Positions 3,975 to 4,599 of a stretch of DNA of 64,000 nt are shown in pieces. The position numbers and the translations under genes were made by a program. The stretch's first letter is position 1; each line of letters opens with the position of its first letter. The DNA comes from Marivirga atlantica (GTDB lineage: Bacteria; Bacteroidota; Bacteroidia; Cytophagales; Cyclobacteriaceae). A model generated the notes under the pieces. It saw nothing but the letters and a program-made list of their open reading frames with translations, did no database searches and was not told the DNA's origin. The stretch lies in the NCBI RefSeq assembly GCF_016734805.1, contig NZ_JAERQG010000001.1, positions 744,001-808,000 of the forward strand. Direction: 5' to 3'.

Positions 3975-4047
3975 GCGAGAGTAGCTCAGCTGGTAGAGCG
4001 CAACCTTGCCAAGGTTGAGGTCGCGAGTTCGAACCTCGTCTCCCGCT
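3975..4047 (+). tRNA. tRNA-Gly (GCC anticodon)
   Basis: A 73-base cloverleaf with D-arm AGCTCAGCTGGTAGAGC, anticodon stem CAACC/GGTTG with loop TTGCCAA (anticodon GCC), T-arm GCGAG-TTCGAAC-CTCGT and acceptor GCGAGAG/CTCCCGC. CCA is not encoded. The acceptor stem has an A4-C69 mismatch where a G-C pair is usual, and the T-stem begins with a G-T pair; otherwise canonical. Confidence 0.95.
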
Positions 4048-4054
4048 CTTAGCG

Positions 4055-4104: not shown

Positions 4105-4188
4105 GCCGGGATGGTGAAATTGGTAGACACGCAAGACTTAAAATCTTGTGAGCATTTGCTCGTGCGGGTTCAAGTCCCGCTCCTGGCA
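4105..4188 (+). tRNA. tRNA-Leu (TAA anticodon)
   Basis: An 84-base class II tRNA with acceptor GCCGGGA/TCCTGGC, D-loop TGGTGAAATTGGTAGACAC, anticodon stem CAAGA/TCTTG with loop CTTAAAA (anticodon TAA), long variable arm TGAGC-ATTT-GCTCG, T-arm GCGGG-TTCAAGT-CCCGC and discriminator A. CCA is not encoded. All stems are intact, so this is the functional copy. Its 3' portion, from the end of the anticodon stem, is repeated downstream at 4462-4580. Confidence 0.96.
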
Positions 4189-4224
4189 CGAAACCTGATC
4201 ATTGCGGTCAGGTTTTTTTGTTTT
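4146..4224 (+). repeat. Direct repeat, copy 1: 3' part of tRNA-Leu plus terminator
   Basis: Bases 4146-4161 (variable arm) equal 4462-4477, and 4167-4224 (T-arm, acceptor, terminator) equal 4523-4580 with one mismatch (G4204 against A4560). This copy belongs to the intact tRNA. Together the two copies flank the GIY-YIG gene as attachment-site duplications do. Confidence 0.9.
4191..4219 (+). terminator. Terminator of tRNA-Leu, first copy
   Basis: AACCTGA / TCAGGTT stem around TCATTGCGG, followed by a T run. An almost identical copy lies at 4547-4575, after the GIY-YIG gene. Confidence 0.8.
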
Positions 4225-4230
4225 GTAGCC

Positions 4231-4467
4231 ATGTATACAGTTTATGCCATTAAAAGTCTTTCAAGTAATTATGTCTATAAAGGACTCACATCAGATTTGG
4301 AAGAAAGATTGCGAAGGCATAATGCGGGCTTAGAGAAAACAACAAAACCTTATTGTCCCTTCAAACTAATTTACAAGAAAGAGTTTGAGACTCGTTTAGA
4401 AGCGAGAAACCATGAGAAGTATTTAAAGAGTGGAATAGGCCGAGAATTTCTTAAACGGTATTTGTGA
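4231..4467 (+). CDS. Small GIY-YIG nuclease nested in a duplicated tRNA-Leu 3' end
   Basis: 78-residue single-domain GIY-YIG endonuclease. The family signature reads VYAIKS...YVYKGLT; the conserved Arg lies in EERLRRHN, the catalytic Glu in EARNHEKYLKSG, and the protein ends GREFLKRYL, the usual end of this family. I start it at the ATG at 4231; the longer frame upstream merely translates tRNA-Leu (a KLVDTQDLKS-like artefact). The gene begins seven bases after the tRNA-Leu terminator T-run, and its stop codon TGA lies inside the repeated tRNA sequence (TTGTGAGC). No integrase or other gene accompanies it. Role unknown; a homing-type or target-site nuclease is the natural inference. Confidence 0.85.
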   Translation: MYTVYAIKSLSSNYVYKGLTSDLEERLRRHNAGLEKTTKPYCPFKLIYKKEFETRLEARNHEKYLKSGIGREFLKRYL

Positions 4468-4480
4468 GCATTTGCTCATT

Positions 4481-4524
4481 CAGGTTTGCCTGCCGAAGTG
4501 CGGGCCTGCCTGTCGGCAGACAGG
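4481..4524. repeat. REP-like GC-rich palindrome inserted in the tRNA remnant
   Basis: Two overlapping hairpins: CTGCCGA (4490-4496) with TCGGCAG (4513-4519), and CCTGTC (4509-4514) with GACAGG (4519-4524) around GGCA. GC content is far above the surroundings. Palindromes of the CCTGTCGGCAGACAGG kind recur in Bacteroidetes intergenic DNA to my recollection, but I cannot check copy number here. Confidence 0.7.
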
Positions 4525-4546
4525 TTCAAGTCCCGCTCCTGGCACG

Positions 4547-4575
4547 AAACCTGATCATTACGGTCAGGTTTTTTT
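4547..4575 (+). terminator. Terminator, second copy, after the GIY-YIG gene
   Basis: Same AACCTGA/TCAGGTT hairpin and T run as 4191-4219, with A for G at 4560. It would end the GIY-YIG transcript. Confidence 0.75.
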
Positions 4576-4599
4576 GTTTTAAGCCCAATTTATAATAAT

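Follow-up and report, generated by a model that had tools for sequence, protein, structure and literature searches.

In a 64,000-nucleotide (nt) stretch of Marivirga atlantica DNA (the window; contig NZ_JAERQG010000001.1, positions 744,001 to 808,000), a 78-residue GIY-YIG nuclease gene lies between an intact transfer RNA (tRNA) gene, tRNA-Leu(TAA), and a second, incomplete copy of the same tRNA, which we call the spare. Nuclease genes of this GIY-YIG family show a strong association with tRNA genes and with duplicated tRNA pieces. Small units, probably selfish, each with a single nuclease gene for about 80 residues and a spare piece of a tRNA gene, appear to be gained and lost at tRNA genes in several bacterial groups while the tRNA stays intact. 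The anatomy of these units, the sorting of their nucleases by tRNA isotype, their patchy presence among related species, their tandem arrays and their linkage to short palindromes were all observed. We consider it probable that these units are selfish elements of a homing-like kind with tRNA genes as their special target, whose cutting, repair and movement we infer.

The window locus contains the following features.

4105-4189, forward strand: intact tRNA-Leu(TAA) called by ARAGORN, the host gene and presumed target.
4192-4219, forward strand: terminator-like hairpin, first copy, 3' of the intact tRNA-Leu and within the 58-nt repeat (identified by eye).
4231-4467, forward strand: GIY-YIG nuclease gene of 78 residues (Pfam PF01541, 54.7 bits).
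4462-4477, forward strand: variable-arm piece of the spare tRNA-Leu, repeating 4146-4161 and overlapping the nuclease stop codon.
4478-4497, forward strand: first 20-nt insertion of the spare tRNA-Leu, from the alignment of intact and spare tRNA.
4505-4524, forward strand: second insertion, the 20-nt palindrome CCTGCCTGTCGGCAGACAGG, which splits the spare tRNA-Leu (same alignment).
4523-4545, forward strand: T-arm and acceptor end of the spare tRNA-Leu, repeating 4167-4189.
4548-4575, forward strand: terminator-like hairpin, second copy, in the 58-nt repeat with one mismatch (bounds by eye).
3975-4048: tRNA-Gly.

The original prediction, made from the letters of this DNA, had placed a 78-residue nuclease gene between an intact tRNA-Leu and a second tRNA 3' end with its terminator, and the ARAGORN call, the PF01541 match and the repeats bear this out. 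Both predicted repeats were located, one of 16 nt that is exact (starting at 4146 and 4462) and one of 58 nt with a single mismatch (4167-4224 and 4523-4580, 356 nt apart). The open reading frame (ORF) starts with ATG at 4231 and stops at 4465-4467 (TTG TGA GC), and the stop codon is indeed formed by the repeated tRNA sequence. The spare contains two 20-nt insertions, the second of which creates the CCTGCCTGTCGGCAGACAGG palindrome. The GIY-YIG gene is the sole ORF of at least 50 residues between the repeats, and no integrase was found there or in the six neighbouring window proteins scanned, as had been proposed for this unit. Five of these six neighbours belong to Pfam families (Phenol_MetA_deg, fatty-acid desaturase, NDK, DHH and FKBP) and the sixth has no family. 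No group I intron RNA was detected, and tRNA alone reaches the gathering score in the window locus (L001).

The same arrangement recurs at relatives of the gene. In the window's genome, a first search returned five relatives, four of them beside an RNA gene on the same strand (tRNA-Leu, tRNA-Asp, tRNA-Val and transfer-messenger RNA, tmRNA), and a later profile search gave eight matches. The Leu, Asp and Val loci share one order, namely an intact tRNA, a terminator, the gene, a split spare tRNA and a terminator. The tmRNA locus (L003) has as its sole repeat 35 nt near the terminator (86%), between the tmRNA and the gene. The tmRNA genes of L003, L024 and L064 precede the same nuclease family, and a duplicated tmRNA end gave no score in L003 or L024.

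Matches to the window protein were found in 34 of 59 genomes, the window's own (G000) included; this survey 1 covers 92 loci and, after broken pieces were merged, 110 genes. Two geometries were defined. In geometry A, the gene lies downstream of a same-strand tRNA or tmRNA (within 300 nt), and any spare 3' piece is beyond the gene. Geometry B is the mirror image, with the gene directly upstream of the tRNA and any spare 5' piece upstream of the gene. The 110 genes comprise 45 in geometry A, 17 later members of arrays, 10 in geometry B, 1 in both and 37 in neither. A same-strand tRNA or tmRNA adjoins 73 of the 110, and in 53 of these 73 a second piece of the same RNA lies beyond the gene. By comparison, 2 of 301 control ORFs adjoin an RNA gene by the same rule (384 kb of the window's genome with 3 tRNA genes, window included). 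The duplication was found at none of 46 control tRNAs, taken from 69 loci with no GIY-YIG match and searched 280-540 nt downstream, so this control tests geometry A. We note that the control set includes the congener remnant loci L105, L106 and L304, whose spares lie nearer than 280 nt and are uncounted, and that a set including GIY-YIG-bearing loci, which gave 10 of 62, was replaced by the set of 46. The duplication is therefore beyond chance.

Two further surveys agree with the first. In survey 2 (30 loci obtained with a profile, 42 genes; L162 and L182 are also in survey 1), 33 of 42 genes adjoin a tRNA or tmRNA, and 26 of the 33 have a duplicated piece. Survey 3 used four Leu-type proteins as queries and took the best 80 loci of 192 relatives in named genomes. 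It overlaps the other two at least at L250, which equals L015 of survey 1, and L274, which equals L186 of survey 2. Among its 91 genes, 77 adjoin a same-strand tRNA and 14 do not, and 71 of the 77 have a duplicated piece. The adjoining gene is tRNA-Leu in 74 of the 77 (anticodons caa 34, taa 25, cag 7, gag 6 and tag 2) and tRNA-Ser in 3. Since nothing but protein sequence entered this search, it tests isotype specificity cleanly within the Leu type. The hosts include Bacteroidota (Algoriphagus among them), Balneolota, Ignavibacteriota and several Patescibacteria groups. Geometry B, which the original prediction did not foresee, accounts for 10 of the 73 adjoining genes of survey 1, 5 of the 33 of survey 2 and 40 of the 77 of survey 3. 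A further set of twenty stretches, of which 15 were picked for clustered matches, contains tandem arrays; it lies outside these survey counts and inside the palindrome count given below.

Occupied and unoccupied loci were compared in ten congeners (G000 to G009), where filled, remnant and empty states were assigned by eye together with a profile scan for the gene. The tRNA-Leu(taa) locus is filled in three of the ten, G000, G004 and G003, the array in G003 being inferred across a contig break (L023, L108). A split spare without the gene is present in G007 and G008, and neither gene nor spare in G001, G002 and G005. G006 and G009 have no Leu spare at this locus and carry a GIY-YIG gene on the opposite strand (L104, L103), which in G006 may belong to a tRNA-Asn unit pointing to the tRNA-Leu. 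The tRNA-Met locus could be classed in nine of the ten, all but G008. It is occupied in G001, G003 (where the sequence contains a gap of N), G005, G006 and G009 and empty in G000 and G002; G004 retains a remnant, and a single broken gene stands with a degraded spare in G007. Filled and empty sites thus exist within one genus at two loci, as the original prediction had proposed to check, and neither universal vertical presence nor a lack of any family link to tRNA duplications was seen. The comparison is between species, and the pattern of filled and empty sites fits gain and loss alike. The downstream flanks of the Leu locus differ among the species seen, which obscures the exact empty-site junctions.

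Some units are repeated with an exact period: 5 copies of 450 bp at tRNA-Leu, 5 copies of 315 bp at tRNA-Asp and 3 copies of 323 bp. Alignment of array copies revealed partial or split tRNAs in nearly every array read, and in L196 and L022 two copies are still called tRNA by ARAGORN. Such arrays raise the question of a host trait, in which spare, loop-altered tRNAs would protect the cell from enzymes that cut tRNA, either as decoys or as a reserve of dosage, and would be amplified by the nuclease, as the phage nuclease SegB amplifies tRNA-Tyr. The tandem amplification parallels that described for SegB (PMC13096335), and the spare copies do retain tRNA parts with altered loops. We regard this explanation as very unlikely, because the array copies are mostly partial or split rather than whole tRNAs and because the units are patchily present among congeners.

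The nuclease itself belongs to the GIY-YIG superfamily. PF01541 matches the window protein at 54.7 bits against a cut-off of 22.6, and in a 30-row alignment Y16, G18, R26, H30 and E62 are invariant and Y5 is at least 90% conserved. The conserved Tyr, Gly, Arg and Glu of the GIY-YIG motif are, we take it, the catalytic residues. Among proteins of solved structure it comes closest to UPF0213 (E 1.2e-16) and SLX1, and phage I-TevI is much weaker (0.0015). The window protein is unmatched among 50,697 phage records (E 1e-5) and among 72,556 plasmid records, and viral contigs gave no match to it as a single-protein query. Phage or plasmid cargo was dropped as an origin on these grounds. Five family proteins likewise have no match in PHROG at E 1e-3.

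In the survey 1 protein tree, the nucleases group by tRNA isotype. The tree needs 31 changes of isotype over 15 groups, compared with a mean of 68.3 when labels are shuffled (0 of 200 shuffles as low). It is built from 107 of the 110 proteins (three shorter than 62 residues were dropped) and 84 columns; many of its forks are open, and near-copies within arrays favour isotype clustering. For the Leu-type tree (82 rows, the first gene of each locus, 80 columns), not one of 200 bootstrap replicates (0%) has a branch that separates the Bacteroidota from all other rows, and the minimum numbers of changes are 16 for geometry, 28 for anticodon and 14 for phylum group. The window protein is sister to the same-locus protein of G004 (97/92), although the protein most identical to it comes from a Balneolaceae genome (69% over 77 columns). 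Transfer between phyla is suggested by the distribution, and this tree falls short of proof. The original prediction, a homing-like unit spreading among tRNA genes, is partly supported. A tRNA-bound unit that comes and goes is retained from it; free movement is not, as protein types keep to one isotype family.

A regular part of the unit that the original prediction had not described is a palindrome in the spare. We aligned 185 spares across all fetched sets, of which 161 are unique. A perfect inverted repeat with a longest arm of 7 or more is present in 84 of the 161 spares, in 25 of the 161 intact tRNAs and in 22 of 805 shuffles; roughly half of the spares thus reach this threshold and the rest do not. 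The spares hold 159 clean insertions of 10 nt or longer, and 94 of these have arms of 6 or more (5.0% in shuffles). These 94 palindromic insertions are exactly 20 nt long in 55 cases and 19 nt in 11, and they are located in the D-arm (47), the T-arm (25), the variable region (11), the anticodon region (4) or elsewhere (7). Precise 20-nt palindromes occur at matching tRNA positions across different phyla, and in the clean cases L015, L016, L017 and L020 the palindrome is inserted with no loss of tRNA bases. A further palindrome-split tRNA copy stands upstream of the intact tRNA in L014 (1956-2053, complement) and L002 (1891-1962), so some loci have split copies on both sides.

The type of palindrome goes with the type of nuclease. 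With Leu-type nucleases, CCTG-type palindromes are found in 61 of 64 palindromic spares at tRNA-Leu and in 3 of 3 at tRNA-Ser, whereas with other nucleases they are found in 0 of 12 at tRNA-Ser (p 0.002 for Ser, under a palindrome-type rule fixed after the data were seen). At the genome level, two palindrome patterns are present in 24 of the 34 GIY-positive genomes, compared with 6 of the 25 GIY-negative ones (p 0.0006), and in 149 versus 6 copies; part of the 149 copies sit inside GIY loci, and kinship of genomes is handled only by the subset from the window's family, where the figures are 20 of 30 and 2 of 7 (p 0.095). The palindromes are not confined to tRNAs. The RNase P RNA gene of G000 (RF00010, 191 bits) holds two TCCCGATNNNNATCGGGA palindromes, at C8:47419 and C8:47654 (L153, L154), and such palindromes also lie in loops of other hairpin repeats in the window's genome. 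The TCCCGATNNNNATCGGGA pair suggests that these palindromes are tolerated in a presumably working RNA.

These palindrome data bear on a different view, in which a structure-specific nuclease would mobilise short palindromes into hairpin loops, tRNA genes would be struck because they are rich in hairpins, and the duplication would be a by-product that lets the cell tolerate the insertions. The enrichment of palindromes in GIY-positive genomes, their presence in RNase P RNA and hairpin-repeat loops, and their match to nuclease type at tRNA-Ser are all consistent with it, as is the naming of UPF0213 and SLX1, the closest solved relatives, as structure-specific endonucleases. We nevertheless think it unlikely, because the isotype-sorted tree and the targeting of tRNA-Leu by the Leu type indicate that tRNA sequence is recognised rather than hairpins in general, and because the association with palindromes is weaker within the window's family. 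A related proposal, which we offer tentatively and rate as rather improbable, is that nuclease and palindrome form a new mobile system, in which a structure-sensitive enzyme would spread 20-nt palindromes into the loops of RNA genes, RNase P RNA included, while autonomous copies would persist at tRNA genes thanks to the tRNA half that they bring. It would be a counterpart, with an unrelated enzyme, of the repetitive extragenic palindromic (REP) sequences and their REP-associated tyrosine (RAYT, Y1) transposases, where short palindromes likewise depend on a genome that also encodes a small enzyme linked to them. The enzyme of REP/RAYT is Y1; here it is GIY-YIG, and Y1 genes track the palindromes weakly.

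An integrase or transposase acting in trans was also considered, with the tRNA duplication as its attachment-site footprint and the GIY-YIG gene as cargo. The 3' ends of tRNAs are classic attachment sites, and geometry A resembles such a footprint. Palindromes are also somewhat commoner in genomes with Y1 transposases (26 of 46, versus 4 of 13 without; p 0.13). On the other hand, geometry B duplicates the tRNA 5' end, the type of the GIY-YIG gene matches the tRNA, and palindromes are present in just 3 of 16 genomes that are GIY-negative and Y1-positive. As the six neighbouring proteins scanned contain no integrase domain and Y1 tracks the palindromes so weakly, this origin was dropped as highly improbable.

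We return to the homing-like element specialised on tRNA genes. In the mechanism that we propose, the nuclease of about 80 residues would recognise the DNA of one tRNA isotype family and break an unoccupied copy within the tRNA gene. An occupied copy would then serve as the repair template, its two tRNA halves providing the homology. The insert would thereby bring the nuclease gene together with a substitute for part of the tRNA, the 3' part in geometry A and the 5' part in geometry B, so that one intact tRNA would be rebuilt and the remaining half would persist as the spare beyond the gene. The anatomy of this end state is what we observed, and the native copy could be either one. Re-cutting of the regenerated tRNA would yield tandem arrays. 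The palindrome may block cutting of the spare, or it may disrupt the homology that would otherwise loop the element out, although both roles are guesses. At some loci 4-20 nt separate the tRNA from the start of the gene and no terminator intervenes; L173 and L184 instead have a terminator-like hairpin after the spare (by eye). This layout is expected under the model because the insert would carry the new tRNA 3' end.

Several observations weigh against this mechanism. The rebuilt tRNA is whole and should be cuttable again, and no protecting feature was found in it; it is the spare copy that is often split by a palindrome. The 58-nt repeat in the window, which spans the tRNA end and the terminator, differs at one position, and near-identical terminators (at least 33 of 40 positions) are present in 22 of 50 geometry-A single-unit rows, among which are two pairs of the same or nearly the same locus. 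Such near-identity has the appearance of local duplication or conversion, and not of a 3' end brought in from elsewhere. Moreover, 37 of the 110 survey 1 genes have no adjoining tRNA (some of them at contig ends), including a 19-row clade that is supported in the tree, and 20 of the 73 adjoining genes score no duplication. The isotype grouping could partly reflect inheritance in place, as with the same-locus sisters of the window and G004. Lastly, a single Patescibacteria clade is not rejected (pAU 0.276, approximately unbiased test), so the tree leaves transfer between phyla unproven.

The two near-identical terminators in those 22 rows would also suit ordinary tandem tRNA duplications that are decaying beside an old, vertically inherited repair gene. 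There is little chance that this is the explanation, given the empty loci in congeners, the absence of duplication at all 46 control tRNAs, and the recurrence of precise 20-nt palindromes at the same points of the tRNA across phyla.

The known systems closest to these units include the mobile ORFs (mORFs) of fungal mitochondria (Allomyces atp6; Glomus atp6, atp9, cox2 and nad3). There, an endonuclease insert brings a replacement carboxy-terminal part of the host gene, the native end is duplicated downstream, and the endonuclease is reported to have been shown biochemically to be responsible for mobility (PMC3630166). In our units a second part of the host RNA gene lies beyond the nuclease gene in 53 of 73, 26 of 33 and 71 of 77 adjoining genes in the three surveys; that one part would be native and the other a replacement is assumed from the model. 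mORFs reside in mitochondria and in protein genes, with LAGLIDADG enzymes in 3 of 4 Glomus cases and GIY-YIG in atp9. In contrast, our units reside on bacterial chromosomes and in tRNA or tmRNA genes, encode a lone 80-residue GIY-YIG domain, have a palindrome in the spare and also occur in mirror geometry.

SegB of phages T4 and T6 is similar in being a free-standing GIY-YIG enzyme near tRNA genes that cuts inside them and causes tandem amplification (PMC13096335, PMC2988022). SegB of T6 is described there as cutting within tRNA genes, with the motif RAWTSGAAC at 23 of 83 sites, and as amplifying tRNA genes (PMC13096335). By our own reading, this motif in reverse complement is a T-loop. SegB is, however, a phage enzyme, and no palindrome-bearing duplicated half tRNA is described for it in the accessible part of that account (PMC13096335). 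The five family proteins lack a PHROG and the window protein lacks a phage match, SegB itself lying outside these comparisons. In ribosomal RNA (rRNA) genes of the candidate phyla radiation (CPR), one report describes GIY-YIG ORFs outside group I and II introns, with insertions mostly at the tops or bases of stem-loops (PMC11270868). The presence of GIY-YIG ORFs in RNA genes outside introns is shared, with rRNA as the site in CPR and tRNA here. Our literature search, whose scope excluded most subscription papers and all preprints, found no account of an element made of a GIY-YIG gene and a tRNA half.

The family extends beyond the loci described above. A profile of 30 proteins matches 191 of 296 sampled genomes of the phylum Bacteroidota at E 1e-8, with up to 18 matches per genome, and tRNA context was examined for part of these 191. 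A second GIY-YIG subfamily, mostly of about 92 residues, has no adjoining tRNA; it comprises L005 (1168-2077) and the 19-row clade (L069, L071, L074, L079 and others). The L005 gene, which belongs to the window's genome, lies between 74%-identical flanks full of nested palindromes (GTCATTCC...GGAATGAC). GIY-YIG genes away from tRNAs were also seen in L029, L050, L053 and L061. The gene is bracketed by a short direct repeat in L029 and by a short inverted repeat in L050 and L061 (by eye), and it is possible that other hairpin targets are used there.

If our reading is correct, the tRNA genes of Bacteroidota and other phyla would host a common selfish element of about 300-450 bp, which to our knowledge is a very short length for any unit that codes for the enzyme of its own movement. 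A nuclease could then inhabit essential genes with no intron, by carrying a spare half of the gene. The element could explain the lone GIY-YIG genes and the short palindromes of these genomes, and isotype-specific DNA recognition by a single 80-residue domain becomes testable.
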